From assembly GCF_002240415.1 (NCBI RefSeq), contig NZ_CP020028.1, forward strand, positions 3,187,501 to 3,251,500: a stretch of 64,000 bases of DNA, given 5' to 3'. Under the pieces are notes generated by a model that had not been told where the DNA came from, made no database searches, and worked only from the letters and a program-made list of their open reading frames with translations. This document shows positions 13,468 through 32,288 of the stretch, one piece after another. Positions within the stretch are counted from its first letter, which is position 1; every line of letters begins with the position of its first letter. Both the position numbers and the translations under genes were made by a program. The DNA is from Paenibacillus kribbensis. Lineage in GTDB: Bacteria; Bacillota; Bacilli; Paenibacillales; Paenibacillaceae.

Positions 13468-16400
13468 TTAATCCGCTGACTTCACTTGAACCAACGGGTA
13501 TTCTTTGCCATCGACCGTAACTGTGCCAGCATCGTCCAGCTCCAGCCGTTGCCAAATGGTCAGGAGTGTACGATAAGGATACTTTTCCAAATCATACTCC
13601 GTTGGCGCGTTAGCGTCTGTGTTGGCTCCATCGCCTGAACCTACCCCCTGGTTAGCCGTTGTTGCTGTAGTACCGGACGTTGTACTTCCTGTGGCTTGAT
13701 TGGCAGTTGCGCCGTTGCCCACTCCAGGAGTTGTCGAGTCACTACCTGCGGATTCTCCAGCCGGTGTCGTGCTTCCAACGGTACTGCCGGTTTTCGCGTC
13801 ACCCGACTGTCCTTTGCCGGTTTTATCGATTGCGGCCTTGTCGTTTTGCTCAGCAAGCGTAAAATTTTCGTATGAATGCTCCTGTTGATCCGCGCCGACA
13901 AGAACGAGCTTCTCAGGCTTAAACGCCGCCTGCTCCGCCGATGTTTGAAACGCAAACAACAGCTTGACCATTTTCGTAGTCGACTTGGTGTTAGGTATAT
14001 GGGTCACTATCATCGTCGGTTCCTCTTTTACAGGCACTGTAGGCTCTGCTACAGGCTGCTGCACAGGCTTAGGAGCCGCAGCAGGCGCAGTTGAATCACC
14101 AGATCCGATCACCCCGGCAGCTTTCAAGCCGCCCAGCGTACCTGCAATGACAATCAGCACGATCCCCGAAATGATGCCGCCTTTGCGAAAGCGGCGCAGC
14201 GTTTTGACCAAAGACGTATCCGTCTCGCGCTTCGCTGTCAGATAGAAATTTTTGAAGACCGGATTTGCAGGTTCAAAATATTGACGCCACAGTGCTTTTT
14301 TATGCAGCCCCTCGCGCCCTTCCTTTTGGAAAAACAACAGCAGCGCCCGTCGGTAGGCCGGTTCAAAACCACCCCGTGGTGTAGCAAATTCAGTCTGTCC
14401 CTCGGACCAGCGGATAAAGCGGTACATCGTATCGTTATCCTTCGCCCATTTGCGGACAGAGCTAACCAGGCGGGCAAAGTCCAATATGCCTTCGCCCGGA
14501 CCGTCAGAGCGGTAGAATGCGGGCAGCAGGCGGGCAAAATGGCCTTCCGTTAGCTGCTGGGGCAGCCATCCGTAAGCCCAGTCCTGCACCTTCTCTATTT
14601 CGCCCGGCTCCAGGCCGTCCAGCACCGACGGTTCCGGGTCCTCCGTGCTAAACCAATCATAAGCCGCGATCAAGCGCACTGCTTGTCCCTTGAGAGGAGC
14701 GGGCAGCTTGCCCACCCACTGTACCAAGTCAGGCCGCGTGAAGAACGGAATTTGTACGAGCTGATCAGGTGATATTTCTTTTAGCTCTACTTCGGTAAGC
14801 AAATACCGATCCGACGCCTCCTGCAAGCGCTCTGTCAATCCGGATTGCTCCAACGGGGAAAGCTTCCCGCCCGTTGAACTGCTATCCCATTGACGCAAGC
14901 GTTGATGAATGGCAGCCACAGTCTCTACCGGCTTTCTTTCGGCACGCAGTCTGCCCATCAATGCAGATTCAGCCAAAAGCTGAAAATCGGCATTCGCTGA
15001 TACCTCGATATATCGACTGCCCCATTCATGCACGACTGCCAGCAGGCCCTTTACATCCGTTGTTCTTTTCATCTGACTGTCCATGTAGGGAATGAACAGC
15101 ATTTTGGTAAGCGCCGGATTCCCCAGCACCTTTGTAAAATACGCCTTGCCTAATGACGGATTCTCTTCAATTGTATGATAGATATACGTCACAGCTTCCG
15201 TATTTCTGGCGGTATAAGCGTTATTCAGCGAGCGGATTAAATATTCCACCAGTCGATTTTCACTGGTGCGAGCATGAACTTTATAATAGTCCTTAAAGCA
15301 ATCGACCAGCCCCGCCTCTGGAATATATCCATCCTTCACCCGGTCAAATTCGTGATCAAAAAATGACAAAAACAAGTCATTCAACTGCATTTTACGTGAC
15401 AACGCATCAGGTGACGATAAATAATCAGTCAGGCTTCGCAGCACAGCAACTCGTCGTTCGTTGTATAATGCGCGCTCCCCCTGCTCAATTCTGTACAGTG
15501 TAATAAGCTCATGATAGCTAGCTAGCGTCAGATTACGCCCTGCCTCCATGCCTGTCAGCATTTGCTCGGCAAATTTGAAAAAATCGTCCGGCGTCCCGCC
15601 ACCAAGCAGCGTACGGACAATCCAGTCAAAATAAGGCTGTCTCACCTGCTCCGCATCCACATTAAGGATTCGACTATTGGCCGACAGGTCAAATACAAAA
15701 TCCTTATCCACGTTCCGATCACCAGGCCGGATACTGAAAGGCTCCACGAACATCAAGTGAATACCTTTTCTGCTGTTCGGCTCCAGCGCATATGTAAGAA
15801 ATCCGATCCTGTTACGATATGCATAAGGCAATGCCGCGTATAATACACCGAGCAGCAGCTTGGCTGAAGATGCCACCTCTTCTGCAGGAACATTCAGCGC
15901 AACATATACTTTTTTGCGGCCTGTGGCCGACATCATAACAGCGTATAGAAGCTGCTTGAACACTTCTTCGCTGAGCTTTAATTGAGTCAGCACCGCTGAC
16001 GGATCAACAGACGGAAATACGCTTCCACCCGGCAGTCGCTCCAATTCCGGCAGCTCCGTTCCCTGCTCAATATCATAGGCATCAACAAAGGATGTGTTCA
16101 GCCACTGCTTGTAATCAGACGGAGATTCACCATGTCCGGGCGGAATCACATAGTTATGCGTGAAAAAAGCGCTTCGCAGCCCGGTAAAATCCGTTGCTTT
16201 ATAGATACTCCGTCCCAGGACCACATCCCCGGACTCGGTCCGCACCAGATGTATGGCTTCAGGATAGACGCTCTCTTGCTTCTCGCCACGGGCTGTTAAG
16301 GCAGCAGGAGCATCATATACGCATAAAGGATGCAGTACCTTTTTTATAAAAGAAGCATCCAGCCCTTTGGAATTAGCCACCGTATCGAAACCTTCCGTGG

Positions 16401-16470
16401 AGCGGAAAATTCCACGCCGTTCCCGTGTGTACATCTGCTGCTGTATCAAATGAGAGGTTGAATGACTCAC
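13468..16470 (-). CDS. GAP1-type GTPase-associated membrane protein with Thr/Gly-rich C-terminal region
   Basis: 1000 residues. The N-terminal ~150 residues (QQQMYTRERRGIFRSTEGFDTVA; later FFTHNYVIP) resemble the GTPase-associated protein 1 N-terminal domain (GAP1-N2) as I remember it. A long helical middle part follows, with LPYAYRNRIGFLTYALEP near residue 210-235. One membrane helix is at about 762-785, preceded by a basic stretch (KTLRRFRKGG), so the last ~215 residues should be outside. That part contains a Thr/Gly/Ala-rich linker (about 885-955) and a small terminal domain. It starts at GTG, overlapping the GTPase stop by 4 nt (GTGA), so the two proteins are made together. Last gene of the operon; I infer it docks or regulates the GTPase at the membrane. 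Confidence 0.8.
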   Translation of the reverse strand: MSHSTSHLIQQQMYTRERRGIFRSTEGFDTVANSKGLDASFIKKVLHPLCVYDAPAALTARGEKQESVYPEAIHLVRTESGDVVLGRSIYKATDFTGLRSAFFTHNYVIPPGHGESPSDYKQWLNTSFVDAYDIEQGTELPELERLPGGSVFPSVDPSAVLTQLKLSEEVFKQLLYAVMMSATGRKKVYVALNVPAEEVASSAKLLLGVLYAALPYAYRNRIGFLTYALEPNSRKGIHLMFVEPFSIRPGDRNVDKDFVFDLSANSRILNVDAEQVRQPYFDWIVRTLLGGGTPDDFFKFAEQMLTGMEAGRNLTLASYHELITLYRIEQGERALYNERRVAVLRSLTDYLSSPDALSRKMQLNDLFLSFFDHEFDRVKDGYIPEAGLVDCFKDYYKVHARTSENRLVEYLIRSLNNAYTARNTEAVTYIYHTIEENPSLGKAYFTKVLGNPALTKMLFIPYMDSQMKRTTDVKGLLAVVHEWGSRYIEVSANADFQLLAESALMGRLRAERKPVETVAAIHQRLRQWDSSSTGGKLSPLEQSGLTERLQEASDRYLLTEVELKEISPDQLVQIPFFTRPDLVQWVGKLPAPLKGQAVRLIAAYDWFSTEDPEPSVLDGLEPGEIEKVQDWAYGWLPQQLTEGHFARLLPAFYRSDGPGEGILDFARLVSSVRKWAKDNDTMYRFIRWSEGQTEFATPRGGFEPAYRRALLLFFQKEGREGLHKKALWRQYFEPANPVFKNFYLTAKRETDTSLVKTLRRFRKGGIISGIVLIVIAGTLGGLKAAGVIGSGDSTAPAAAPKPVQQPVAEPTVPVKEEPTMIVTHIPNTKSTTKMVKLLFAFQTSAEQAAFKPEKLVLVGADQQEHSYENFTLAEQNDKAAIDKTGKGQSGDAKTGSTVGSTTPAGESAGSDSTTPGVGNGATANQATGSTTSGTTATTANQGVGSGDGANTDANAPTEYDLEKYPYRTLLTIWQRLELDDAGTVTVDGKEYPLVQVKSAD

Positions 16471-17732
16471 TGTGATTCTCTCCCCTCAATGTACTGCAAC
16501 TTATAGAGCAGCCAGATGAATGGCTCATCCACCCGGATCGGACTGACCAGCCCTTGCAGCTTTTGTTCGACCGGATTGCTACCCAGAGCGGAAACCGCGA
16601 AATAAGCCGTATCTGTAAAATACACATCCATCGTGCCCTTGAACGGCTTATCCACCTTCTCGATAAAGCGCCGGACTTCGCCATCAATGTTCGCGAACTC
16701 ATCCAGATCCATATACTTGCGGTGCTCCATCGGATTAAAAATGTTGCTGTTCGTCTTGATGTAGGTGCCTTCCTCATCTGCCAATGCAGTCAACATGTCA
16801 CTTTTGGTCAGGACGACTGCGGTCGGAATGTCCGTTTTTCCCTTATCCTGATATGCGATAAAATCACCGAACATCGTCAGTACGACATCACGCGGTTCAT
16901 CATATTGCGAAACCCATTCGCCCGGCTTGTCGCCAAGGTTGATCTTAATACGCTCCCGAATCGAGCGAATTTGCAGCGGATCGACCATAAACAGAATACC
17001 CGCCGAATTCTTAATATGCTGTCCATGCAGCCCCAGATAGTCCTGATCGACCATCCCCTCGCCGGCAACATCAAAAAATACCAGCGTCAGCGGCGGCTTT
17101 TCCTCATCTTTAAATACAAACTGGAAAATAAAAGGCTCCTGCATCTTTTCTTTTTGTGTGGATGTCAGCAGGTCGCCTCGCTCAAACAACGGTTCCTCAT
17201 ACATGCTGCGGAATTTACGGCTGATCTCTGCATTGAGCGGCATGCAAGCCGCATCAAAATGATCTGCCGTTACATGCTGCAGCGTGTGAATCAGGGAAGT
17301 CATATAAACTGATTTTCCTGCCTGCGAAGCCCCGATAATCGAAATGATATTGCTCGGCACCTTACCTGCAGTCACCGGCAGTTCGTTGTGGCAGTGCGGA
17401 CACAATCGGTGACGCGTCAGCTCACCATAACGATCCGTCAGACCTGTCAGTACATGATCCGAATATAATCTGTGCTCTTCCGGAACATCGTGGGGATGAA
17501 GAATCGCCTCCATATCATGCACGCTATCCAAACCAAAGCGTTCCCGATATTTGTTCAACAGCTCATCTTCACCCAAAGCGTAATCCTCGTCATCTTCGCG
17601 GTGGTGGGAAGCACGGAATACCACTTCTTCCGGGGAAAATTTACTAAAGCAATACGGGCACACAATATCATAAAATAATGGCCTTGGCGCTGCCTGCGGC
17701 TTTCTTCTGAATAAATTGCTAAGAAAACTCAT
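16467..17732 (-). CDS. Zinc-ribbon P-loop GTPase (TRAFAC, DO-GTPase-like)
   Basis: 421 residues. A zinc ribbon is made by CPYC (25-28) and CPHC (111-114), split by a 80-residue acidic insert. The GTPase part has P-loop GASQAGKS (134-141), G3 DVAGEG (221-226) and G4 TKSD (309-312). The DxAGEG and TKSD motifs and the neighbouring GAP1 gene fit the double-GTPase-associated (DO-GTPase) families of predicted conflict or signalling systems. No membrane helix; likely cytoplasmic and tethered through its partner. AAAGGAGG lies 9 nt before the ATG. It is 16 bp after the small beta-rich gene and overlaps the GAP1 gene. Confidence 0.85.
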   Translation of the reverse strand: MSFLSNLFRRKPQAAPRPLFYDIVCPYCFSKFSPEEVVFRASHHREDDEDYALGEDELLNKYRERFGLDSVHDMEAILHPHDVPEEHRLYSDHVLTGLTDRYGELTRHRLCPHCHNELPVTAGKVPSNIISIIGASQAGKSVYMTSLIHTLQHVTADHFDAACMPLNAEISRKFRSMYEEPLFERGDLLTSTQKEKMQEPFIFQFVFKDEEKPPLTLVFFDVAGEGMVDQDYLGLHGQHIKNSAGILFMVDPLQIRSIRERIKINLGDKPGEWVSQYDEPRDVVLTMFGDFIAYQDKGKTDIPTAVVLTKSDMLTALADEEGTYIKTNSNIFNPMEHRKYMDLDEFANIDGEVRRFIEKVDKPFKGTMDVYFTDTAYFAVSALGSNPVEQKLQGLVSPIRVDEPFIWLLYKLQYIEGRESQ

Positions 17733-17748
17733 GGGTTGCGGCCTCCTT

Positions 17749-18402
17749 TCATTCAGGAACTAATTCATATATCGTGCCATATTTCTGACCGTCCGTAAAA
17801 AATAACCGCACATATTCATCTCCGCCCACTTCAATTGTGGGCAACACATTCCGTCCCGCGGCAAAGGGTGCCGTGAACGGGTACAAGGTTCCATCCTCAC
17901 GGTCGGCCGGGTAACCTCCACGTTTCTTCACGTAGCAAAGTGCCTCCTGCGGAACAGGAACCTCAGCTCTCACCTGAATCTGAACTGTTTTGCGGCTGCG
18001 AAACCAGCCTTTTTTATGTTGAACTGCATATCTGATTTTAGCTCTACCTGTACTCAGCTCCAGTTGGTTGGCTCGGTCTTGTTGACAAATCACAAGAGTG
18101 TCGCCATCCTCACGCACAGCCGGATACACGGTATAGCGCACGCGTCCAAACCCTTCAATCCGGTCACGGTAGCTGCCTGCTGCCTTATATTCCTCACGCG
18201 TAAATAGCTTTAGGCTTGAAAAAGGCGGTAAACCTCTACCCTCATTCTGCTCTCCGGCACTCGGATCAGATGATTCCTTCGCAATATATACCACGGCCGC
18301 GCCTTCAGGCCACTGCCAGCGAAGCACAACCCGGTTGTCGTCGATTTTATAGCTCAGCTCCGAAATGACAGGATCACCGGGCTGTGCATCCCTATACTGC
18401 AT
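17749..18402 (-). CDS. Small beta-rich protein of the GTPase/tubulin/vWA operon
   Basis: 217 residues, no signal peptide or membrane helix. The sequence alternates polar and hydrophobic residues in a way that suggests two beta-sandwich domains. The first resembles a fibronectin-III-like strand order (LSYKIDDNRVVLRWQWPEGAAVVYIAK, then RDRIEGFGRVRYTVYPAV). The second contains IRYAVQHKKGWFRSRKTVQIQV. I do not recognise a named family. GGGGG lies 9 nt before the ATG. Its place between the membrane vWA gene and the GTPase suggests an adaptor in the complex; this is inference from context only. Confidence 0.75.
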   Translation of the reverse strand: MQYRDAQPGDPVISELSYKIDDNRVVLRWQWPEGAAVVYIAKESSDPSAGEQNEGRGLPPFSSLKLFTREEYKAAGSYRDRIEGFGRVRYTVYPAVREDGDTLVICQQDRANQLELSTGRAKIRYAVQHKKGWFRSRKTVQIQVRAEVPVPQEALCYVKKRGGYPADREDGTLYPFTAPFAAGRNVLPTIEVGGDEYVRLFFTDGQKYGTIYELVPE

Positions 18403-18419
18403 AAATTTCAGCCCCCGTT

Positions 18420-19709
18420 CTAAAATCCACTGCTGCGTCGATTGCGCTGCGGGCCTTCCGGTGCACCCCTTCGTCGACCTGACGGCCCACCCGGGCTTCC
18501 TCCACCAGAAGAACGACGCGTATTTTCCCCAATCGGAAGAACAAGCGAAAAGACAGCAATGAGCGCCGCCAGTACGAGCGCTGCCACCAAACGAATCATC
18601 AGATCACCGATCGACGAGCCCGACAGCCCCTTTTCCAAAATGAAACCGGCAAGCAATCCGGCAGGGACTCCGCCAATCGCAAAATTCCGTGCCAGAAAGC
18701 GATTATCGAACATCAGTCCAAGAGCCAATCCCAGCAGTGCTCCGATAATGACCAGAGCCGTTACGCGATAAATGGCAAAATACAGACTGTCCGCATATTC
18801 ACCTGTCCGCTCCGTTACTAGTGTACGATCACCAATTTTATCATAAATTTTACCAAACGCTTGAGCAAGACCCTGAGCGTTGGCTACATTCGAATAAGTT
18901 CCACCTGTCAGACTGGCGATATTTTGCAATAATGCTATCCCTTTCGATTCAGCCAGCTTGAGTCCGATGGTATTAATCGGAATCTGGCGGGCGATAAAAG
19001 GAGCTAATGCTGTCTGGGTATCCAGCTCGCTAAAGCCGTCAGACAGCATAATAACGAGCGAACCTTTATTGGCATTGCCCTGGTTTTCAATCTCCTTGAT
19101 CGTCTCGTCCAATGCAAGTCTAATTTCTGTGCTGGCGGACTTTATGGTATGCATACTATCAATTTTGGCATAAACCGCCTGCTTCTCTGCCTCCGTCCCA
19201 ATTGGAGTAAACGGCTGAACCAATTGCGCAGTAGATTCAAAGGAAACAATGGCTACCCGTTTGTCTCCATCCATTTGTCCAATCAGGCTCTTGGCAGCCG
19301 ACAGCCGTTCATTACCAGGATCTGTATCCTGCATACTCCCGGAATTATCAATCACAAGCACAAGGTCCTGGACACTTTTGCGACCTTCCGGGTTTACCTG
19401 ATAGCCCAGCTCCAGCAGCAGGCCTGCCACGAACAGCATCACCAGTGTAGCAGGCACCAGCAGCTTCCAGGACAGTCCTGAGTAGCGTTGTCGCCACGAA
19501 TGGCCGTTTAATTGTGGTGAAATCCATTCGCCGATAAGACATCCCAGACCAATGCATAGCGCCAAGATGCCAAAATACAGCCCAATCACAATAATATGCG
19601 GCCAGTGTCCTATCCATTTGTGAAGAATAATCTCTCCTACAATGAAGCCCACTACAGCGCCCAGCAAGCCGAACAGCAGCAGGAGAACATTAAATTTACG
19701 CTGCTTCAT
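18420..19709 (-). CDS. Membrane-anchored vWA-domain protein
   Basis: 429 residues: three hydrophobic helices in the first 105 residues, a von Willebrand A domain from about 112 to 300 with an intact MIDAS (DNSGS at 121-125, then conserved T in SASTEI and D in LSDGFSE), then three more helices (about 315-395) and an Arg/Gly/Ser-rich tail of ~36 residues. The MIDAS binds Mg(II)/Mn(II) and partner proteins. With three helices before the domain, its side of the membrane is ambiguous; the positive-inside rule applied to KQRK at the N-terminus and the basic C-tail favours a vWA domain outside. GGAAGG lies upstream of the ATG. It is 46 bp downstream of the 788-residue protein gene. Confidence 0.85.
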   Translation of the reverse strand: MKQRKFNVLLLLFGLLGAVVGFIVGEIILHKWIGHWPHIIVIGLYFGILALCIGLGCLIGEWISPQLNGHSWRQRYSGLSWKLLVPATLVMLFVAGLLLELGYQVNPEGRKSVQDLVLVIDNSGSMQDTDPGNERLSAAKSLIGQMDGDKRVAIVSFESTAQLVQPFTPIGTEAEKQAVYAKIDSMHTIKSASTEIRLALDETIKEIENQGNANKGSLVIMLSDGFSELDTQTALAPFIARQIPINTIGLKLAESKGIALLQNIASLTGGTYSNVANAQGLAQAFGKIYDKIGDRTLVTERTGEYADSLYFAIYRVTALVIIGALLGLALGLMFDNRFLARNFAIGGVPAGLLAGFILEKGLSGSSIGDLMIRLVAALVLAALIAVFSLVLPIGENTRRSSGGGSPGGPSGRRRGAPEGPQRNRRSSGF

Positions 19710-19755
19710 AAGAATCGTTGCTTCCTTCCATCATTAAAGTAGGATTAACAAGTGG

Positions 19756-22122
19756 CTACCGCAATTCCGGCAACCGATCCGCGGCGATTCCGTGAAACTC
19801 AAAACCGTTCGCGGTATATGTCTCATAATACGTCTTGCCGTTGCGATACACCATCAGATCCTCCAGATGGAAGCCGCCCATCAAATGCAGCTTTTCCACC
19901 CCGCTGCTGCGACGTTCATGCACAAACCCCAGCTTGTAAATACGCGAGGTAATGTCCACATCCATCGCATAAGGAAGAAATTCGCCTTCATAGTCGCCAA
20001 AGAAATACTTTTCTTCATACCGATGCTCATGGGTATAATCCAGCAAGCGCACGTTAATTCCGCCATGCTCCTCTAATGTTTGGTACAGCTTTTTAAACAG
20101 CTCATCCTTTGGAACGACCAGCCGATTTTCATATGCAGCGGCTACATTGGCACGCCGTAGCAACTCCTCTTCGAATGTCTGATTAAACGGCTGTGAGCTG
20201 AGAATCATGGTACGGCAGGTCTGTGTAAGTCGATCCACCAGTAGGGACAGACCTCCGTCCAGCAATCCGGACACAGGCCCCATATGACGGGTATCAAAGA
20301 ATACAGATTTCCCCCGTTTGGTTTCCAGCTCGTGCATGACATCCTCTGTTACCCGCTCGTAATACTCGAACAGGTTTTGACCCGTGTAGCTGTCAGCCTG
20401 GCGAATACTGTCCGCTGCGGCTTGATGCAGTTCACGCTCCAGGCTGGCAAGCTGTACCGTAATATGCTTTGCCTGTGCATGCCATTTTTCAAGCGCCAGC
20501 TCATAGTGGCGCAATAGCTCCAAATCCGCTTGAATCCGCAGCATATGCAGCTTATGCCCGTAGACTGTCTCCGTCAGATACCGGATCAGGCTGCGCACAT
20601 TATGCTTATCCATGAGCGGCAGCCGTTGAAAGGGCTGATCCTCCACTCGGCCGCTATAGAGGGTATCCAGCTCAGCAGCACTAACCTGCAAATCATTGGA
20701 CGTATCACGAATCATTCCCCGAATAGCCGTAAGCACATTTCCCGGTTTATTTTCATCTGTCCAGTCTGCCAGCTCGAATAGGCCGATTTCGGGATGCTCC
20801 TTGGCAGCTGTGTTCACAGCTGTCTGCAAACGTAATTCCGCCTGAAAATCGCCCAGCCGTTTGTGTACGATCCGTTCACAGTTATCGCGGAAAAAGGTTT
20901 CGCAGCCTTGACCAAACAAGGCTTCCTCTGCCTCACGTAATGACATCCGCTTCAACGAGCCATAACTGGCTCCACTCGTCATCAGCGCACCCATGTCTGT
21001 AATCGCATCATTCCCAGGCACAAGATCATTTCGCGTACGCCCGCGCTCGGCAGCATCCAAGCCAAAATAAGTCAGCTTATCGCGTACGTCCCATTCCCTC
21101 TCCGTTCTCATACGTGTCAGCAGCTTCACATAAAAGTGATACAGTACCGTAAGCGCGATCGACTGGTTGGGGCGCTTGACCCGGGAAAATCCGGCCGACA
21201 CATAGCCCTGCCGCCCGGATTCCGTCATAATATTGTTCTTAAACGATGTATTGTTGTAGCCCCCATCCTGTGACCGATAGGAATCTCCTGCCTGATAACG
21301 GTTTTTGAGGAGCTGAATGTGACAAATGATGTCGCAGCTCTCGCGCAGGCTATTAGGCACCGTTATGCCGCGCTCGTTCTTGTCGGACAGCACATAAACA
21401 AGATCAAACAACGGCGATGGAGCATGGAATACCGGGATGGTCAATTTGTCCTCGGTCATATGGAGCGGCGCCGTAAACGTATACTCCGGGCTCTGGATAT
21501 AGTCCAGTTCCCGCATAAAAGCAACGGACGTTGCACTACGGTAGCCGAATTGGGCAGCCTGATCGCCTTCACTCACCAGCACATACAAATCCATCTGTAC
21601 GGACTTGAAGGACTGCGCAAAAATATATTCCGCCAACAGCGTAATCTCGGGAACCAATACATTCATCGGATCATCGGCTGTCGTCAAGATCGACAAATGG
21701 ACACGCTCGAACGAGGAATACAACCGGCCGTAATCCGCCAAGTGCCCACTTGCACGGCGCAATGCGGTGTTAAGTTCAATCAACTGCGATTCATGTGTAT
21801 AAAAAGCCTGATGCAAATCACGGCGTATCGTTTGGTGGCTGCTATCCTCCGGTACGGCTACCGTATGCAGGATAGTATCTACAGAACGGTTTACACCCGT
21901 CTGCTCATCCTGTGAGCGAATCTGAATATAGGTTACCCCTGTGCTGTTATCCCACTTGGTCCGGTTGATATCTGCAATGGTGTTTATCACCGATCCCATA
22001 CCGTCACCGATAAAAAGAAACACGGACGGGAAATGGATGCTGCTGCGTCCATCCCCGCTTCCGATTAATTGGTCCTCTGCGGCTGCATAGTCAGCCGCAT
22101 AACGCAACAGCTGCTCTCTCAT
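19756..22122 (-). CDS. Large cytoplasmic protein, possible degenerate tubulin-like partner
   Basis: 788 residues without signal or membrane helix. The N-terminus reads as a Rossmann-like strand-loop-helix (VFLFIGDGMGSVINTIADIN, residues 34-53) that parallels the T1 loop of the neighbouring tubulin-like protein, followed by strand YIQIRS (65-70) and strand LYVLVSEGDQAAQFGY (179-194) where an intact protein would carry the Gly-rich T4 loop. No GGTGSG motif is present. The C-terminal half is helical. I infer a non-hydrolysing paralogue or partner of the tubulin-like protein, but this needs structure comparison. It starts 3 bp after the tubulin stop, without a strong ribosome site, so translation is probably coupled. 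Confidence 0.65.
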   Translation of the reverse strand: MREQLLRYAADYAAAEDQLIGSGDGRSSIHFPSVFLFIGDGMGSVINTIADINRTKWDNSTGVTYIQIRSQDEQTGVNRSVDTILHTVAVPEDSSHQTIRRDLHQAFYTHESQLIELNTALRRASGHLADYGRLYSSFERVHLSILTTADDPMNVLVPEITLLAEYIFAQSFKSVQMDLYVLVSEGDQAAQFGYRSATSVAFMRELDYIQSPEYTFTAPLHMTEDKLTIPVFHAPSPLFDLVYVLSDKNERGITVPNSLRESCDIICHIQLLKNRYQAGDSYRSQDGGYNNTSFKNNIMTESGRQGYVSAGFSRVKRPNQSIALTVLYHFYVKLLTRMRTEREWDVRDKLTYFGLDAAERGRTRNDLVPGNDAITDMGALMTSGASYGSLKRMSLREAEEALFGQGCETFFRDNCERIVHKRLGDFQAELRLQTAVNTAAKEHPEIGLFELADWTDENKPGNVLTAIRGMIRDTSNDLQVSAAELDTLYSGRVEDQPFQRLPLMDKHNVRSLIRYLTETVYGHKLHMLRIQADLELLRHYELALEKWHAQAKHITVQLASLERELHQAAADSIRQADSYTGQNLFEYYERVTEDVMHELETKRGKSVFFDTRHMGPVSGLLDGGLSLLVDRLTQTCRTMILSSQPFNQTFEEELLRRANVAAAYENRLVVPKDELFKKLYQTLEEHGGINVRLLDYTHEHRYEEKYFFGDYEGEFLPYAMDVDITSRIYKLGFVHERRSSGVEKLHLMGGFHLEDLMVYRNGKTYYETYTANGFEFHGIAADRLPELR

Positions 22123-22125
22123 ACT

Positions 22126-25100
22126 TTACTTCAACTTTCTGCGAATGTCGTTTAATTTACCGGCCATTTGAGCATAAAACGCATAAAGCTCAGCTCCATT
22201 AGCCAGCTCCACCTTTTCATACTCCAATTGATTACGGGCTTCTGTAAAGGTCGCAGCGAGTCCATCCAGCTTTGTCAGCAATGGTGTAATATCCTCCGAC
22301 GAAGTCAACACAGCATCACGGCGATCCGCTTTACGCATCAGGGCTGCAAGTTTCTTCTCTTCCAGACCACGGAAGTTTGTAAACACTTCAAACTCCACAT
22401 AATTACGACTCTTCATAACGTTGGCGAACGGCTCCCAAGCCTCTTCCTCTTCGTCACGATCATAGACGTACAAAGCGCCTTTCTTCGAAATCGTGTCGGT
22501 ATAGAGGACCTGGATGAATTGATCCAGCCATTTTTCCTCATCCTGATATTTGCCCAGCAAAGCCTCCAATTCCGCAGCCTTTGCTTCGATTTCAGTATAT
22601 TTCGCCAGTTCTTCACGAACCACCTGCGTAAGCTCCGGTGAACGGATCAGGTTTTCCTTGGCCATGTCTTCATTGATGCTGCCAAAGATGTCTTTGCTTC
22701 CCGTCTGATCCAATCCTTCAGCCAGTAGACGTTTCAGCTCAGACCATGCTCTCTTCACCTCACCCAGATTTGGCTTGGATTCCTGCAAACGCATATCGTA
22801 GCCTGCCAACAGCGCATTCAGATCCAGCGCACGTGAACGCAGCACGGTAAAGCGGCTGCTCGTATTCTGATCGACATCCTTCTCACGGATAACACCAAGT
22901 GACTTCGCATGGTCGAAGTCATTTCGGATACGGGCATTGTAAGCCTGCACACGCGGATTGACATAGGTTTCGCCCCATGATTTTTCAGGAATTGGCGAAG
23001 GCAGATTGGTCCAGTTATTCTGACCTGTCTGTACCAAATGGCGGCCAATACCTTCGCGGTCAAGAATCGTTTTTTCATAGCTTTCTTCATACACTTTGAG
23101 TGGCGTATATACAAACAGCGGGACGCCATTGCGCGTATTGAGCCAGAAAATACGGTTACGGACTTCACTCTCTTTAATCGTAAAGTGCGATTTGCCAATC
23201 GCATTATTTTGATAATTGCGAACACCCTTCAAAATGTTAGGTGACTGCACAGGTACCGATACAAATCCCCATGACGGGAAGTACAAATTACCAGAGCTGT
23301 TGCTCAGATGGAAGACAGGTACAGCCTCCTCATCCAGCTTGCTCGCAATGTAGCGCTCCACGAATTTTTCAATTGCTTCATCCTGCCCGTATTTCATGAC
23401 CAGGAAATCCTCCATGGAACGGGTAATGAGATCACCGAACTTTTCGGTCAAGAAATTGGAGATGGAGCTGATGATGTCCATATCCTGATCTTTCACCCAT
23501 TGATCTGAATTTTCCAGCAATTCCTGGGCAAAATCACGAATCAAATCATCACCGTTACGCTTATCCAGCAGCTTGGTCACGACTTCGGAAATATCCGGGA
23601 CGCTTACCAGATTCCAATAGTACGTTTTGTTGCCTTTATGATCGGACTGTTCCTCGCCATTGATCAGCAAATCGCCATTCTTTTCGAAAATGGCACTCAG
23701 TGCGTTCAAAATTTCAGTAAATACATTATAAATGCGGTTGTTTTCCTTATTTAGCAAGTCATACAGGTCTTCATAAAATTCAATAAGCTGCTCTGTACGC
23801 TCCACATCGGCCCGAAGCCAATATTCATTGATTTTTGCTTCAATATATGCATTTTTCTTTTTATCCTTGGACACAAACGCGCTCTTGGCATCGCCCAGCT
23901 TCTCATTCGCCTGCTCCCGCGCCCATTCAATATCCGTAGGAATACGGTGCAGGGATTCTCTCAACACCTCAATATAAGAAAGCAGCATTTTCAGCAAGCT
24001 GAATCCTTTTTCCGTATAAATCATACGGGATACATAGAACGGTCCTTGCTCGGGATGCAGGAACATCCGGCGGATCTGATCTGTAAACTGCCCCGTAATC
24101 TCGCCTGGAAGCTGTTTCTTTGCTTTGATATATTCTTCACGGGCACGTGTCAGGAACGTCTGCTCCAGCTCAGTGTCCATATTGACAACTTGCATTTTCA
24201 CAACATTGCTATAGCTGAGTCGTTCACTATTTTCAAATCCCGGCAGTGGCTCTGGTACACGTGATTCAAAGTTTTTGATCATGCTGTCCAGATCCACGCC
24301 GAGCTTGCGGGCAAACTTCTCTACGTCCTCCTGATTCGGCGCCTGCTCGAACATTTTGGACATTTTACCAAACATCCGGTAAGCCAGATACGTGGTCATT
24401 TCCTCCATCGGCAGCACTGCCGAGGAAGCCCCGATAATATTGTAATCGTAGTTTGCCGGGTAGGTCTTATTCATTTGTGCAATGTTCGTACGAATGTTGC
24501 TGATATAGTCATGGATGGCGAACTCTTCGCCCGACTGTTTTTCCTCACTCGCCATAAAGTTGGTGATGTTCTCGGCGGTGACATTCATGCAATAATCATA
24601 AGCATTTTCCAGCAGCTTGCCTTCCGTATTCGTGGCCGAAATAAGGTGACACAGATTAAACGGCGGCAACGGCGAGTTTACGGTCAAAATGTTACCGTAC
24701 TGCTGCTTAAAGCGTTCACCGCGACTATCCACATTCATCCAGTAGTCCAGCTCTTTTAGTGCGGCATAGCCGTTCTTTTTTATATATTCACGTGTATGCT
24801 CGCTCAGGCTCTTGTTGGCCAGGTTAATATCCGGTGTAAACAGATAACCTAATGTATTCACACGGTCTACACCTGCGGAGCCGTAGTCACGTTCAATAAT
24901 TCCCCGGACGATATAGGAGATATCGAGGAAGGTGCCGCTTCCTGTACCGCCGGACAAACCGGACAGCAGGAACACCATCAGCTTCTTGTTGGTGCCTTCC
25001 GACAGGGTTTTGATTTTTTTGTCAATGCTTTGTACGACCTGATTGATTTTGGTGAACAGCAGCAGGCGTCCAGCCTGACGTACCCCTGCGGCTCCGTTCA

Positions 25101-25515
25101 TTCCATCCGTAATGCTCAGTTCGGGAGACAGCCAGTCAGTAATGTACGGCTCCAGAATGCTGCGATTTTGCAGCAATCCGCCGATTTCAGCATTGGACAG
25201 CAGTACAAACTCATTGATCGGGTCCAGCCCAATGCCCTTGTATTTTTTGTTGCGATCCTGCTCATTCGTTTCAAAAGCGAGAAATTCCACATTGTCCGGC
25301 TTTTCGCTCTTTTTCTTGGAAATTGGATCTGCCGGCAGCTTGAATCTGCGGTTAATTTGATATTTCAAGCGAAGGAGGGCATCGATCCCCGTACCTCCAA
25401 GTCCGATAATTAATATAGGATTATCAATGGTATCTACTCTGATCTTGTCGCTTACGATTCCCCCACCGAGTGATACGTCTAATTGTTGAATATGCTCTCT
25501 AACTACGGGTTTCAT
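22126..25515 (-). CDS. Large tubulin/FtsZ-like GTPase (Tubulin_2-like)
   Basis: 1129 residues. The N-terminal ~450 residues look like a tubulin/FtsZ fold: Gly-rich T1 loop IIGLGGTG (36-43), NGAAGVRQAGR (140-150) and the tubulin signature loop SGLSGGTGSG (185-194) after the strand LMVFLL. The rest, about 650 residues, is mainly helical and acidic, with possible coiled segments, and has no membrane helix. The family (Pfam Tubulin_2, as I remember it) is found in large, poorly studied gene clusters with vWA and GTPase proteins. It should bind GTP and may polymerise. AGGAGG lies 8 nt before the ATG. It sits between a secreted vWA gene (24 bp upstream) and its possible partner (3 bp downstream). 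Confidence 0.88.
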   Translation of the reverse strand: MKPVVREHIQQLDVSLGGGIVSDKIRVDTIDNPILIIGLGGTGIDALLRLKYQINRRFKLPADPISKKKSEKPDNVEFLAFETNEQDRNKKYKGIGLDPINEFVLLSNAEIGGLLQNRSILEPYITDWLSPELSITDGMNGAAGVRQAGRLLLFTKINQVVQSIDKKIKTLSEGTNKKLMVFLLSGLSGGTGSGTFLDISYIVRGIIERDYGSAGVDRVNTLGYLFTPDINLANKSLSEHTREYIKKNGYAALKELDYWMNVDSRGERFKQQYGNILTVNSPLPPFNLCHLISATNTEGKLLENAYDYCMNVTAENITNFMASEEKQSGEEFAIHDYISNIRTNIAQMNKTYPANYDYNIIGASSAVLPMEEMTTYLAYRMFGKMSKMFEQAPNQEDVEKFARKLGVDLDSMIKNFESRVPEPLPGFENSERLSYSNVVKMQVVNMDTELEQTFLTRAREEYIKAKKQLPGEITGQFTDQIRRMFLHPEQGPFYVSRMIYTEKGFSLLKMLLSYIEVLRESLHRIPTDIEWAREQANEKLGDAKSAFVSKDKKKNAYIEAKINEYWLRADVERTEQLIEFYEDLYDLLNKENNRIYNVFTEILNALSAIFEKNGDLLINGEEQSDHKGNKTYYWNLVSVPDISEVVTKLLDKRNGDDLIRDFAQELLENSDQWVKDQDMDIISSISNFLTEKFGDLITRSMEDFLVMKYGQDEAIEKFVERYIASKLDEEAVPVFHLSNSSGNLYFPSWGFVSVPVQSPNILKGVRNYQNNAIGKSHFTIKESEVRNRIFWLNTRNGVPLFVYTPLKVYEESYEKTILDREGIGRHLVQTGQNNWTNLPSPIPEKSWGETYVNPRVQAYNARIRNDFDHAKSLGVIREKDVDQNTSSRFTVLRSRALDLNALLAGYDMRLQESKPNLGEVKRAWSELKRLLAEGLDQTGSKDIFGSINEDMAKENLIRSPELTQVVREELAKYTEIEAKAAELEALLGKYQDEEKWLDQFIQVLYTDTISKKGALYVYDRDEEEEAWEPFANVMKSRNYVEFEVFTNFRGLEEKKLAALMRKADRRDAVLTSSEDITPLLTKLDGLAATFTEARNQLEYEKVELANGAELYAFYAQMAGKLNDIRRKLK

Positions 25516-25539
25516 AGATTTGACCTCCTAAGGGTTCGT

Positions 25540-27342
25540 TTAGCTGTTCACTGAAATGAATTCCAGCAAAATGGTTTTGTCCACACTAGCCAGCGGGATC
25601 GTCAGACGATCACCGTTTTTCAGTTCAAGACCGCTGCCTGTGTCTACAGCGCGTCCGGATTTTTCAATCGTAATCTCCGGGGTGCTGCGCACCATGATTC
25701 GATCCTGATTGGCTGGCGTGAACACCACCTTGTCGGTTCCGGAAAATTCCGGTGCCAGTTGCAGCAACTGGTGCAGATTGAATTTGCCCCGGAAGGTGTT
25801 CAGCTTCTTGTATTGCGGATACGTTTTTTCACCGGTATTTTCATCCCGGATTTCCAGTACAATTTGGCCGACAAAACCACGATTGGCTTTTTTGACAGCC
25901 TTCCAGATGAAAAATGCGGCAATCAGCAGAACAAGCAATCCCAGTCCTGCAAGAATGAGTGGCAGCAGGTTGGACTTTTCGGCAGGTGCTGCCGTTTGAG
26001 TTGTACCTGTATTCGTGCCACTGCCCGCTCCTGCTTTAGCACTGATGGTTATCGGCTGGGTTTCACGGTAAAAGCTCTTCTCTTCTGCTCTGACACTTAG
26101 TTCATAGTCATGCTCATCCGGAATCGTGTAAGAGCCGGTAAAAGCATCGCCTGCATTGGTTAGCGACACCTCATTCGTTGTCCCGGAATCCAGGTCCTTG
26201 ACCTTCAGAACAGCATTCATATTCGCATATAATTCCTGATCCTGAAACTGCTGGTTATTACTCGTCAGATAGGAACGAATTTGAACCGAGTCACCTTTTT
26301 TGTACGATTGGGCAGGCGGTGCGTCCAGCTTCAATTCCAAATCATAGTTAAATACCAGATTAATATCGATCTGATCCTGCCGGACTCCCTTGACCTGGAG
26401 CTTCCAGTCGCCAGCTACAGGCTTGAGCAGTTTGATCAGCGAGTAGCTTTTCGACTTGGACAACAGTACATCGCTTGAAGGAATCGGCTTGGTGTTGCCC
26501 GACGGATCTATCAGTCTTGCATCCACCGGTTTCGAGGACATAATCGAAATGTTGGCCTCCAGCACGCTATCGTTCGGTACGGTTACCGTAACATCCTGAT
26601 AGTTGCCGTTCGCCGTAATGGACTGCAAGGGCACAACCTTCAATTTCAAATTGCTGGCGAAAATTTCACTCAAAATGTTCGGCAGATCATCCGCCGAGCT
26701 TGTAATAAAGGACTTGCCGCTCGTTTGCTGCGCAATGTCGGCGAGTTTGTTTTTATTCAGCTTTCCGTCTGCATTGAGACCGATGGTATAGATCGGAACA
26801 CCGCTATTTTTAGCTTCGGCTACAGCCTTCGCCATATCCTGTTCGGACTGGCTTTCGGTTCTGCCTGTCGTTTTATTAAAATCGTTGTTGCCATCAGCCA
26901 GCATAACGATCATAGGCGCATGTCCGGCTGTTTTGCCATCCTGCAAAATGCGGATCGCTTCCTTGACGCCTACGGAGGTGTCAGTATACGCCCCCCGGTT
27001 CAGCCCGTCAATAAATGCCTTCAATTCCTGCTTATCCGCTTCAGACGTGATATTAAGCAAGGCTTTTTCGCGCTGTACAACATCCGTATATGCTACGATC
27101 CCAACCTTGTCGTTTTGCGTCGACAGCATATCAATAAACATTTTCATGGCTTCATTGCCAATTTTCCCAGGATCACTGGTGTTCATAGAATTACTTACAT
27201 CGACAACCAGCACCGCATCTACCTTGGAGGCAGAGGGTGAAGCGGCATTCGCCGTCTGTGGCTGCCATGCCGAAATCGAAGTCATGATCATTGCACATAT
27301 GATTCCGATGACCAAAAACCATTTTCTGTCTCTACTCAACAT
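25540..27342 (-). CDS. Secreted, membrane-anchored vWA-domain protein
   Basis: 600 residues: a signal peptide (about 1-33, ending TANAA), a vWA domain (about 40-230) with MIDAS DVSNS at 48-52, AYTDTS and LADGNND, then one or two beta-sandwich domains (about 235-440), a Gly/Thr linker, one membrane helix (about 456-481) and a cytoplasmic tail of ~120 residues that starts with a basic patch (KAVKKANRG). The tail is beta-rich (FHA- or ubiquitin-like in look, not identified). The vWA part is therefore outside and the tail inside. It is the first gene of the operon; GGGG lies 9 nt before the ATG. It may sense or hold extracellular partners and signal to the internal tubulin/GTPase machinery. Confidence 0.85.
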   Translation of the reverse strand: MLSRDRKWFLVIGIICAMIMTSISAWQPQTANAASPSASKVDAVLVVDVSNSMNTSDPGKIGNEAMKMFIDMLSTQNDKVGIVAYTDVVQREKALLNITSEADKQELKAFIDGLNRGAYTDTSVGVKEAIRILQDGKTAGHAPMIVMLADGNNDFNKTTGRTESQSEQDMAKAVAEAKNSGVPIYTIGLNADGKLNKNKLADIAQQTSGKSFITSSADDLPNILSEIFASNLKLKVVPLQSITANGNYQDVTVTVPNDSVLEANISIMSSKPVDARLIDPSGNTKPIPSSDVLLSKSKSYSLIKLLKPVAGDWKLQVKGVRQDQIDINLVFNYDLELKLDAPPAQSYKKGDSVQIRSYLTSNNQQFQDQELYANMNAVLKVKDLDSGTTNEVSLTNAGDAFTGSYTIPDEHDYELSVRAEEKSFYRETQPITISAKAGAGSGTNTGTTQTAAPAEKSNLLPLILAGLGLLVLLIAAFFIWKAVKKANRGFVGQIVLEIRDENTGEKTYPQYKKLNTFRGKFNLHQLLQLAPEFSGTDKVVFTPANQDRIMVRSTPEITIEKSGRAVDTGSGLELKNGDRLTIPLASVDKTILLEFISVNS

Positions 27343-27423
27343 CGCTTGTACCCCTTTGCCGGTTTAATTCTCATTTCTAGAAACTTTTCACTCTAAATTA
27401 CAGTTGTACTCCCCTACTATTAA

Positions 27424-27429
27424 ATTATA
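27424..27429 (-). promoter_or_regulatory. Possible -10 element of the seven-gene operon
   Basis: A TATAAT on the minus strand lies 82 bp upstream of the first gene, but I find no good -35 at 16-18 bp. The rest of the 318-bp divergent gap (27343-27660) shows no other gene or clear repeat. Confidence 0.35.
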
Positions 27430-27530
27430 ATGAGTTTTACATGAGTGCCAGCTGAAAATACTGCCTGAATGGTCATAATACCGCCAAAAAGCCTGTTATA
27501 CCGCGAGATTTTACCAATATCCTGCAGTAA

Positions 27531-27539
27531 TGATATAAT
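27531..27539 (+). promoter_or_regulatory. Extended -10 promoter for the divergent pair
   Basis: TGATATAAT is an extended -10 (TGn plus consensus TATAAT) about 120 bp before the first plus-strand gene. No strong -35 is visible, as is common for extended -10 promoters. Confidence 0.5.
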
Positions 27540-27660
27540 TATACCCCAACCAGGGCAATCGGGCACCAGCCTTCTCCTTTATACGACAAAAATGACAGCA
27601 GTGAAACCTGCCCATGTAAAATATCAAAGTCAAAATCCAAGCAGAAAGAGGAAGTACACT

Positions 27661-27813
27661 ATGATCTCATACGGATGTCTGGCGATTTTGTTTCTTTTTG
27701 TCGCCATTAAATTAATCATTTACTATATACATAAAAAACGTGCTCCGTTGATTACGCAAATCGACACCGAGCTGCTGGCACTGCTGAACCGGAGAAGTGA
27801 ACGCAATGAATAG
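27661..27813 (+). CDS. 50-residue single-span membrane peptide
   Basis: A short protein with one N-terminal membrane helix (LAILFLFVAIKLIIYYI) followed by a basic and then acidic cytoplasmic tail (HKKRAPLITQIDTELLALLNRRSERNE). GAGGAAG lies 6 nt before the ATG. It overlaps the next gene by 8 nt, so the two are coupled. The function is unknown; the position divergent from the vWA/tubulin operon suggests a role in the same system. Confidence 0.6.
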   Translation: MISYGCLAILFLFVAIKLIIYYIHKKRAPLITQIDTELLALLNRRSERNE

Positions 27814-28723
27814 CTCCAAACAGGCTGTACAATTCCGTCCATTCACCCGCACGGAGCATGCCTTCCAAAAGCTGAGAATCTGCAGGCATTGCGGACAATT
27901 CACCGCCCTCTGGGAAGAAAAATGTACATCCTGCGATCGGGATACGCTGGTTCCTGTAGAGCAATACGCCAAGCTCAGTGCCAGACGTTATTTCCGTAAA
28001 GACCTCGCCGTTGGCATCATGCTGTTGGCCGCTGCTGTCTTTTTTGGTCACTCAACACAGCAAATGCTTCTGAGCGGTGTTGTCGGTGCACTCCTCCTGC
28101 TGCCGTTGGTGCTTCTGCAGCAGCGTATTTATCCTTTTGAAAAGCGCAGACAGCTTATACGCCTGTTCAGAGGACGCATTTCACAGATCCATGAGGGACT
28201 GGGCGTCAATCATCAAAACGCGGTTGCCCTGCGACAGCTCAGTGAGCGTGTCTCCTATGAGATGCTGCGTGAGATTGCTGTTCTCATTCACAACGACCGG
28301 ATAAGGCTCCAGCAGGTTGCCCTGCTGCAATCCTTTGTTCTGCGCAAAGATATGGAGTTGATCCTCGATCCTCTCCTGATCAAAAGCTTTGAACCGCTTA
28401 TGGTCAGATATATCGGAGAAATTGCTAGATTAAATCGTGAGCTGATCAAGGATCGAACATTCCGATATGTCACCTTTTATGAGCGTCGCATTCTGGAAAT
28501 GGCAGGAGGCGAGGATATTCTCGTCCGCGTAGCCAATGCGGCTGTCCGCAAAAAGCGTTACGTAGTCACCCATGCCGCATTTATTTCCAGATATGTACGC
28601 AAGCTACCCAAGGAAAGAGTCCAACGATTATATCATATCATTCAGGAAAATCCGTTAGAACCCTTCGGAGATTTGGCCGATGAGGTGAAGATCATGTACC
28701 TGATGGAGCAATATAAAAGCTAA
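27806..28723 (+). CDS. Zinc-ribbon, two-helix membrane protein with long helical tail
   Basis: About 305 residues. An N-terminal zinc ribbon is formed by CRHC (26-29) and CTSC (40-43), followed by two membrane helices (about 66-105) and ~190 residues of charged helices with no enzyme motif I recognise. Both soluble parts should be inside. The ATG at 27806 has GGAG 11 nt upstream; a GTG at 27797 lies too close to that site. It overlaps the 50-residue gene and ends at a strong terminator. The zinc ribbon recalls that of the GTPase across the divergent promoter. Confidence 0.7.
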   Translation: MNSSKQAVQFRPFTRTEHAFQKLRICRHCGQFTALWEEKCTSCDRDTLVPVEQYAKLSARRYFRKDLAVGIMLLAAAVFFGHSTQQMLLSGVVGALLLLPLVLLQQRIYPFEKRRQLIRLFRGRISQIHEGLGVNHQNAVALRQLSERVSYEMLREIAVLIHNDRIRLQQVALLQSFVLRKDMELILDPLLIKSFEPLMVRYIGEIARLNRELIKDRTFRYVTFYERRILEMAGGEDILVRVANAAVRKKRYVVTHAAFISRYVRKLPKERVQRLYHIIQENPLEPFGDLADEVKIMYLMEQYKS

Positions 28724-32178: not shown

Positions 32179-32209
32179 CTGCTCTCTCTCCTTATGATAT
32201 ATTCTATTA

Positions 32210-32243
32210 CCGAGTATTATACTCGGTTTTTGAGGGAAAGCAA
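32210..32243 (-). promoter_or_regulatory. Promoter whose -10 lies inside a perfect 17-bp palindrome
   Basis: On the minus strand TTGCTT (32243-32238), 16 bp, then TATAAT (32221-32216). The -10 is the centre of CCGAGTATAATACTCGG (32210-32226), an exact 8-1-8 palindrome that looks like an operator. Confidence 0.65.
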
Positions 32244-32258
32244 CGTTTTTGGACAAAA

Positions 32259-32288
32259 AAGAGGCAGCCTCAGCCACCTCTCTTAATC
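32259..32288 (-). terminator. Terminator of mccAB
   Basis: On the minus strand AGAGGtGGC pairs with GCtGCCTCT across a tiny loop and is followed by TTTTTT, 17-45 bp past the mccB stop. Confidence 0.75.

Follow-up and report, generated by a model that had tools for sequence, protein, structure and literature searches.

We analysed a 64,000-nucleotide stretch of the Paenibacillus kribbensis genome (the window; contig NZ_CP020028.1, positions 3,187,501 to 3,251,500), in which seven genes lie close together on the minus strand (13468-27342) and two divergent genes overlap each other (27661-28723); all nine are present (Table 1). From the promoter outward, the minus-strand genes are separated by gaps of 24, 3, 46, 17 and 16 bp and lastly by a 4-bp overlap between the GTPase and GAP1 genes, in agreement with a preliminary description of seven co-directional genes with gaps of 3-46 bp or overlaps. 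The family memberships also held in profile searches, where GAP1-N2, GAP1-M, DO-GTPase2, VWA (twice) and, in the 1129-aa protein, Tubulin_2 all scored above cut-off. BETA (217 aa), FW1 and FW2 gave no Pfam match above cut-off, the scan having used FW1 as a 114-aa and FW2 as a 308-aa reading frame. The listed FW1 frame, from 27469, starts too early, and 27661 is the better start; FW2 is 305 aa long from its ATG, and the listed GTG at 27797 yields 308 aa.

Table 1. Features of the nine-gene locus, with the minus-strand genes listed from the promoter outward.
Feature	Position	Strand	Evidence
VWA, secreted/type I membrane vWA protein, 600 aa	25540-27342	-	Pfam VWA, 60.7 bits
TubA, tubulin superfamily (Tubulin_2/FtsZl1), 1129 aa	22126-25515	-	Tubulin_2, 256.7 bits
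TubB, predicted tubulin fold without GTP loop, 788 aa	19756-22122	-	Model and fold search
VWB, multi-spanning membrane vWA protein, 429 aa	18420-19709	-	Pfam VWA, 58.8 bits
BETA, probably beta-rich, without TM segment, 217 aa	17749-18402	-	Inference from sequence
DO-GTPase with N-terminal zinc-ribbon cysteine pairs, 421 aa	16467-17732	-	DO-GTPase2, 34 bits
GAP1, 1000 aa	13468-16470	-	GAP1-N2, 156.6 bits; GAP1-M, 89.5 bits
Shared divergent promoter region	27343-27660	.	Extended -10 motif
FW1, single-TM protein, 50 aa	27661-27813	+	Hydrophobic segment, tblastn homologues
FW2, zinc ribbon, hydrophobic segment(s) and helical-looking domain, 305 aa	27806-28723	+	Motif, presence counts

The promoter region contains an extended -10 element (TGATATAAT, 27531-27539) and TTTACC (27510-27515), oriented for the plus-strand genes. 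Of 159 intergenic regions from related loci, 73 had TGnTATAAT on the strand of the plus genes and 2 had it on the opposite strand, while mononucleotide shuffles gave a mean of 2.4; the counts are not independent because the loci are related and partly duplicated. Sporulation and other sigma motifs were sought by eye, and only this sigma-A-like element was recognised.

Against four close relatives, eight genes had dN/dS values of 0.014-0.14, and the ninth, FW1, had 0.06-0.43. TubA and the GTPase lay at 0.014-0.030 (TubA alone, 0.020-0.026), and their mean identity was 78%, compared to 87% for FtsZ and far lower values for the other cassette parts. BETA, the GAP1 tail, TubB and FW2 evolve fast.

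Tubulins, GTPase and GAP1

The Tubulin_2 match of TubA covers aa 35-385 (cut-off 27), and its GTP loop (GGTGSG, aa 189-194, ~24934-24951) is intact and was kept in 160 of 160 loci. TubB scored 18.9 bits, under this cut-off, and the GGxG[ST]G loop is missing from TubB in 159 of 160 loci. A predicted structure model and fold search gave TubB a tubulin fold and a long helical part with a helix at aa 505-575; the assignment rests on this model because hhalign of TubA against TubB (E 3.8e-4) reached a probability of only 36%. The protein had earlier been described as a large partner. The model, fold search and motif count support it being itself a tubulin-fold protein without a GTP-binding loop. 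TubA and TubB differ from the BtubA/BtubB and Asgard AtubA/B pairs in that TubB has no GTP loop and carries the long helical part, and no microtubule is known for them. Members of the tubulin superfamily usually assemble. Makarova & Koonin (2010, PMC2875224) also hold this view.

In the GTPase (DO-GTPase2 cut-off 27), all 160 loci keep Walker A, DxAGE and two CPxC pairs, and 139 of them keep TKSD; DO-GTPases belong to the TRAFAC clade (Kaur et al., 2020, PMC7159879). In GAP1, GAP1-N2 lies at 16036-16446 and GAP1-M at 15682-15990 (cut-off 24). An AF2 model (pLDDT 79.4) placed, in order, a longin-DENN-like head, a HEAT/ARM-like solenoid (aa ~334-760), a TM segment (aa ~761-779) and a polar tail, predicted to lie outside, with a small beta domain and a polar linker of low confidence. 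A TM segment past residue 600 was found in 141 of 143 distinct loci, followed by 19-364 residues (median 231). The profile matches, the CPxC pairs and the TM segment bear out the zinc-ribbon GTPase and GAP1-like membrane protein of the preliminary description. Near-identical sequences were removed before the TubB and GAP1 alignments (A5, A6), as was the GAP1 fragment of L250 before A6.

Longin-DENN modules are eukaryotic GTPase regulators. The predicted fold of GAP1 aa 5-330 resembled such modules (DENND1A/B, DENND10, FLCN) and bacterial TagF (Foldseek/VIA), in fold, in two-domain order and in having a GTPase partner. Unlike these proteins, to which GAP1 has no detectable sequence similarity, the GAP1 module continues into the solenoid, TM segment and outside tail, and its partner is a DO-GTPase, not Rab or Rag. 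This likeness of the modelled N2-M region is suggestive, not proven, and a longin-DENN-like cytoplasmic head is more weakly supported than the tubulin fold of TubB. Sequence-based routes from GAP1 to DENN/longin yielded no link; one search listed Multicystatin (53 residues, E 1.8e-5) and eS10 (E 0.007), both taken as chance. A viral fold library gave no GAP1 match at E 0.001, and PDB-sequence profile searches with TubA, TubB, GAP1 and FW2 gave nothing under E 0.02. We found no literature joining TagF with the DENN domain, a module regarded as a eukaryotic invention (Zhang et al., 2012).

vWA, BETA and divergent proteins

VWA has a signal peptide-like start, hydrophobic segments at aa 8-26 and 462-480 (the latter a predicted TM segment), a vWA domain (aa 42-224, cut-off 23.8) with the MIDAS motif DVSNS at aa 48-52, a stalk that reads as beta-rich and a conserved, predicted cytoplasmic tail. 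Two hydrophobic segments were present in 142 of 145 distinct loci, and DxSxS in 160 of 160 unflagged reading frames. VWB carries its vWA domain at aa 115-283 (cut-off 23.8) with the metal-site motif DNSGS, kept as DxSxS in 156 of 157 loci, the sole miss being a truncated frame. A simple scan gave VWB five hydrophobic segments (five or six in 137 of 142 distinct loci), and its vWA domain is predicted to lie outside because it falls between the third and fourth. Metal-site motifs are kept in two vWA domains that are both predicted to be extracellular, and the proposed arrangement, with vWA modules outside and GTPase and tubulin parts inside, is supported as a prediction from hydrophobic segments. 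Frames with internal stops, five in the first set and three in the second, were removed before motif counts.

BETA, probably beta-rich, has invariant W29 and W31 and an invariant C-terminal LCYVKK...FFTDG block. It occupies the position of the FNIII component of Kaur et al., an assignment by inference, and none of 27 members matched fn3.

FW2 contains a CxxC...CxxC zinc ribbon, one or two hydrophobic segments and a helical-looking domain; the four cysteines were present in 156 of 157 loci, the miss being a short frame (FW2 of L071 and L117 was excluded before alignment A4). At E 0.001 it had 193 relatives, and among the best 120 of 193 none had a Pfam domain and nearly all named ones were Paenibacillus. 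FW1 homologues were detected by tblastn in 55 of 80 TubA-bearing loci and 76 of 80 named loci, and a loose scan found a small TM reading frame ahead of FW2 in 157 of 159. The two genes had been described as a coupled pair facing the other seven, which stands; locus surveys and the FW2 presence pattern make them regular members of the unit.

Conservation and inheritance of the cassette

The set had been taken as undescribed, which does not hold. Kaur, Burroughs, Iyer & Aravind (2020, PMC7159879) report a firmicute tubulin-type GAP1-N2/DO-GTPase neighbourhood with GAP1-N2, a zinc-ribbon DO-GTPase, a pair of tubulin genes whose products carry a C-terminal coiled coil, two genes for vWA proteins (one a multi-TM protein whose vWA domain is extracellular, the other fused to YtkA), an FNIII-repeat protein and a highly polar C-terminal extension on GAP1. 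The present locus shares GAP1-N2 with GAP1-M, the GTPase gene just upstream of GAP1, two tubulin-domain genes (TubA by Pfam, TubB by model), two vWA genes, one multi-TM, and the polar extension; its GTPase has the Walker B glutamate (DxAGE) and adjoins GAP1, as that class requires. It differs in that no variable effectors were seen, TubB has no GTP loop, FW1 and FW2 (not mentioned in the accessible part of that paper) are regular members, BETA does not match fn3, and VWA does not match YtkA, giving weak Hemicentin/MG2 matches only. Among the literature matches listed, judged by titles and the starts of abstracts, no experiment on the system was found.

Gene content, order and orientation were constant: 79 loci agreed out of 81 in one set, as did 79 out of 80 in an overlapping set of named loci, and the exceptions were incomplete stretches (L110, cut by its contig; L274, cut; L109, which ends ~1 kb past VWA). 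Together with the low dN/dS values, this recurrence goes far beyond chance. The 160 TubA-bearing loci comprised 145 distinct TubA-GAP1 pairs. Within the genus, GAP1-N2 and Tubulin_2 were found in an identical 66 of 75 genomes; in the class, 61 of 398 had GAP1-N2, and these were also the 61 with full-length Tubulin_2. A group of 30 genomes was hand-picked to hold all 9 genus absentees and 3 listed family absentees, so its share of absentees (12 of 30) does not estimate how often the cassette is missing. In this group the GTPase, FW2 and TubB each occurred in all 18 genomes with the cassette and in none of the 12 without it. Co-absence was scored on GAP1, TubA, GTPase, FW2 and TubB. On the rpoB tree of these genomes, cassette absence required three changes (0 of 500 shuffles were that low); among 18 genus members it required two, compared to five for Cas1 and seven for HsdR. 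With its order fixed and the five tested genes missing jointly, the proposal of one co-inherited transmembrane device is supported by the neighbourhood survey.

Kaur et al. read the whole GAP1-N2 class as phage or competitor conflict systems, in which FNIII/vWA proteins act as invader sensors, DO-GTPase-GAP1 supplies the threshold and a large assembly of the tubulins is the effector. The fast-evolving parts and the existence of genomes without the cassette, which is hence dispensable, fit this reading, but of the 145 distinct loci, L109 alone has a convincing extra gene among the seven co-directional genes. Effector genes varying between close relatives, and so the effector exchange that is the hallmark of the published reading, were therefore not seen in this lineage. 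The cassette is also near-universal in the genus and lost by clade, not patchily, whereas Cas1 and HsdR each occur in 29 of the 75 genomes. TubA was not found in 72,556 plasmid and 50,697 phage records, which speaks against a mobile element; the GTPase query found two distant Rhodococcus plasmid places (31%). PADLOC 2023 models matched 0 of 9 cassette proteins at E 0.01 and nothing credible in nine flanking genes, where the lone match was a 20-bit CARF to a 145-aa frame, and no NCBIfam match named a function. We consider a conflict role unlikely.

Possible functions of the cassette

The genomic comparisons establish a fixed gene set, co-loss of the tested genes and intact nucleotide motifs in the GTPase and TubA, and hydrophobic, putative membrane segments are present in VWA, VWB, GAP1, FW1 and FW2. 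Since the make-up is remarkably fixed, the data suggest a standing cell-surface job over phage defence. We tentatively favour, at somewhat short of even confidence, a vertically inherited nine-protein transmembrane envelope machine of the tubulin-type GAP1-N2/DO-GTPase class, whose output would be structural or homeostatic and not a variable toxic effector. VWA and VWB would bind cell-wall or surface ligands outside through their metal-site vWA domains, and the bound state may cross the membrane to GAP1 via the conserved VWA tail and the TM segment and outside tail of GAP1. The longin-DENN-like head would set the nucleotide state of the zinc-ribbon GTPase, which would gate assembly of TubA in fixed partnership with GTP-dead TubB; the pair may form a polymer or cap attached to the membrane, which would position or remodel the envelope. 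FW1 and FW2 would serve for membrane docking, with BETA acting as an adaptor.

Makarova & Koonin (2010, PMC2875224) described the tubulin family FtsZl1 (Tubulin_2, PF13809) in vWA/GTPase/FtsZl1 operons and predicted general membrane remodelling or vesicle formation on an FtsZl1 polymer, with vWA proteins as structural partners, not sensors. The likeness is close (a GTP-loop tubulin-like protein with coiled-coil/helical C-terminus, metal-site vWA proteins and a divergent GTPase in one operon), and the Tubulin_2 match of TubA and the modelled fold of TubB agree with it, whereas a second, GTP-dead tubulin and GAP1 go unnamed in the accessible part of their paper. The reviewer Jekely objected that cytoplasmic FtsZl1 and outside proteins occupy different compartments, which VWA, VWB and GAP1 could bridge; nothing points to bending or vesicles, and we hold this reading to be somewhat less probable still than a conflict role. 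Least probable is a gate without polymer, also raised by Jekely, in which TubA and TubB would form a soluble heterodimer that senses GTP and controls a channel in the membrane (VWB/FW2), as the missing loop of TubB and the five or six segments of VWB would allow, but no transporter or effector domain was found (Pfam, NCBIfam) and the usual assembly of tubulins speaks against it.

The envelope machine that we favour may be specified further, in a form that we regard as doubtful: GAP1 would be a bacterial longin-DENN regulator that drives a TRAFAC GTPase and thereby controls the tubulin and its pseudo-tubulin partner, all subject to two vWA receptors whose metal sites face outward. The cassette would then be an integrin-like cytoskeletal complex for adhesion or envelope sensing in Gram-positive bacteria, gated by the GTPase, and the DENN GTPase-regulator fold might have its root in prokaryotes.

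What is new here is the constancy of gene content and order, the probable pseudo-tubulin TubB, the suggestive DENN/TagF likeness of GAP1, and the predicted membrane anchoring of GAP1 together with the vWA metal sites. Most sampled genomes of the genus, and a second large family within the class, keep this nine-protein unit of no known job in a fixed form, and this fixed make-up argues against classing the firmicute tubulin branch as variable conflict systems. The putative pseudo-tubulin partner and DENN-like GTPase regulator are concrete structural targets. If the DENN link is true, it would bear on the origin of the GTPase-regulator fold of eukaryotic membrane traffic.

Layout and promoter region of the cassette

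On a chromosome of 5.78 Mb, the seven minus-strand genes are arranged from the promoter in the order VWA, TubA (a Tubulin_2/FtsZl1 protein with a GTP loop), TubB (a tubulin-fold protein lacking that loop), VWB, BETA, DO-GTPase and GAP1, which carries a GAP1-N2 and GAP1-M head, a solenoid, a TM segment and a predicted outside tail. They are spaced by 3-46 bp with one 4-bp overlap, confirming the tight packing proposed in the preliminary description. The two coupled divergent genes, FW1 and FW2, begin from the same 318-bp intergenic region as the other group, again in agreement with that description. Searches of the cassette proteins against NCBIfam and PADLOC gave no match that indicates a function.

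Features of the cassette and its flank in the window
Feature	Position	Strand	Description
Seven co-directional genes	13468-27342	-	VWA to GAP1
VWA	promoter-proximal	-	signal peptide-like start, vWA, TM, cytoplasmic tail
VWB	between TubB and BETA	-	multi-TM vWA protein
TGATATAAT	27531-27539	+	sigma-A-like extended -10, upstream of FW1
FW1	27661-27813	+	50-aa TM protein; overlaps FW2
FW2	27806-28723	+	zinc ribbon, one or two hydrophobic segments, helical-looking domain
916-aa protein adjoining cassette	28840-31590	-	weak alpha/beta-hydrolase match
145-aa ORF	31840-32277	-	weak PADLOC match CARF2--CARF_HEPN, 20 bits, E 7e-5

The locations of all cassette proteins are predictions from hydrophobic segments. 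The DxSxS metal-site pattern was present in 160/160 VWA and 156/157 VWB sequences, and the VWA tail beyond the TM ranks among the better conserved regions of that protein, as expected if it communicates with the cell interior.

TGnTATAAT was found on the FW1-side strand of 73 of 159 related intergenic regions and was missing from 86; the other strand gave 2, and mononucleotide shuffles a mean of 2.4. Since these regions are related and partly duplicated, the counts indicate conservation in some clades and not independence. Signals for sporulation or stress sigma factors were not noticed on inspection of the promoter region by eye. In the flank, the CARF2--CARF_HEPN match is probably due to chance, and the 916-aa protein was matched in the nearest relatives only (10/80 loci, and 4/80 of the best 80 of 287 named loci).

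Conservation of gene order and content

The order GAP1-GTPase-BETA-VWB-TubB-TubA-VWA with divergent FW2 was retained in 79 of 81 loci (the window and 80 further genomic loci). The remaining two are incomplete: one is cut by a contig end, and the stretch of the other (L109) stops ~1 kb beyond VWA, so that its FW2 cannot be judged. A second set, comprising the best 80 of 287 matching named stretches, showed the identical order in 79, the single exception being a truncated locus. Separation of the genes across neighbourhoods, which would have argued against a single system, was therefore not seen. Within these best 80 of 287, all loci are from Paenibacillus except three labelled Bacillus sp., and the nearest cassettes are those of Paenibacillus sp. 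BJ-4, P. brasilensis, P. maysiensis and P. ottowii. FW1 was detected by tblastn in 55/80 TubA-bearing loci of the first set and in 76/80 of the named set; a loose ORF scan found a small TM ORF near the FW2 start in 157/159 loci of both sets, some of them poor (e.g. L239).

The two sets overlap, with 160 TubA-bearing loci representing 145 distinct TubA and GAP1 pairs. In these 145 loci we surveyed every gap >200 bp that separates members of the co-directional seven, and only L109 contained a convincing extra gene. This encodes 473 aa between VWB and BETA, and on inspection its product resembles an oxidoreductase of the NAD(P)/FAD type. In the remaining long gaps (<=1.6 kb) the reading frames are short or repetitive. 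A 172-aa frame in L085 was rejected as an extra gene, being the beginning of that locus's own broken VWB. In five loci (L104, L108, L246, L249 and L257), gaps of several hundred bases are filled by short repeat units with repetitive translations, perhaps minisatellites or small repeat elements.

Distribution, loss and rates of evolution

GAP1-N2 was present in 66 of 75 genus genomes, and Tubulin_2 in exactly the same 66. GAP1-N2 occurs once per positive genome except in G054, where GAP1 is represented by two pieces of a broken gene; TubA is broken into separate frames in G054 and G037. Either sequencing error or decay may account for these breaks. At class level, 61 of 398 genomes carried GAP1-N2 and the same 61 a full-length Tubulin_2 (>200 bits), while six more gave weak Tubulin_2 matches alone (<=31 bits). 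Positives belong to four families, namely that of the window, a sister family within the order, another large family (f23), and f12, which contributes one genome from an assembly that is 8% contaminated.

An rpoB tree was built from 30 genomes, 18 with the cassette and 12 without, picked to contain all nine genus genomes that lack it and three such genomes from the family. On this tree its absence required three changes (a clade of eight genomes, another of three and one lone genome), a value reached in 0/500 shuffles (mean 9.7); the starred branches taken alone force only one change. GTPase, FW2 and TubB were each found in 18/18 cassette-positive and 0/12 cassette-negative genomes, indicating that the five of the nine genes checked (GAP1, TubA, GTPase, FW2 and TubB) are absent jointly. 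Among the 18 genus members of the tree, the cassette required two changes, compared to five for Cas1 and seven for HsdR, each of which occurs in 29/75 genus genomes.

Mean pairwise identity across 18 genomes was 0.91 for RpoB, 0.87 for FtsZ, 0.78 for GTPase and TubA, 0.59 for VWA, 0.50 for VWB and BETA, 0.48 for TubB, 0.41 for FW2 and 0.37 for GAP1, within which it ranged from 0.59 (N2) to 0.21 (outside tail). When the window was compared with four close relatives, GTPase and TubA gave dN/dS values of 0.014-0.030 and the other long cassette genes values of 0.05-0.14; in FW1, a very short gene, the range was 0.06-0.43. Cassette gene trees shared 8-12 of 15 splits with the RpoB tree. Slow evolution of the enzymatic core and fast evolution of the surface and adaptor parts could reflect either the tuning of a machine to an envelope that changes or an arms race; the constant gene content favours the former.

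Relation to published systems and likely role

The cassette is real and conserved, but the type of system is not new. The preliminary description had regarded only pieces of the set as known, whereas Kaur et al. (2020; PMC7159879) give the same neighbourhood type nearly part for part, and Makarova & Koonin (2010; PMC2875224) describe the FtsZl1/vWA/GTPase core; the cassette thus belongs to a class already known as a prediction. FW1 and FW2, regular members here, do not appear in the available text of Kaur et al. A 2023 survey (PMC9871819) leaves the Tubulin_2 proteins to one side, treating them as FtsZ-like outgroups of sparse occurrence. No published experiment on this system was found among the matches listed in literature searches.

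In its modelled fold, the GAP1 head resembles DENN proteins as well as TagF (PDB 9t0n), an accessory protein of bacterial type VI systems, hinting that TagF may share the fold seen in DENN proteins. A profile of the head matched plant Multicystatin (4lzi; E 1.8e-5, 53 residues) at aa 140-192 of GAP1, probably by chance. Two Rhodococcus megaplasmids (NZ_CP113952.1 and NZ_CP110470.1) encode a relative of the GTPase (~31% identity over ~72% of the query), suggesting that the class may occur on actinobacterial plasmids.

The biological-conflict role proposed by Kaur et al. for GAP1-N2 systems is weakened for this lineage, as the effector exchange typical of conflict systems was not seen across the 145 distinct loci. 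An envelope role agrees mildly with a 2024 paper on phage-shock systems (PMC11237479), which mentions a DO-GTPase tied to membrane stress in a different context. Our analysis adds constant content with clade-wise loss, the membership of FW1 and FW2, a GTP-dead tubulin and a DENN lead. Judged from sequence and structural models, the cassette would most likely form a complex of the envelope or cell surface that is built on tubulins and gated by the GTPase.
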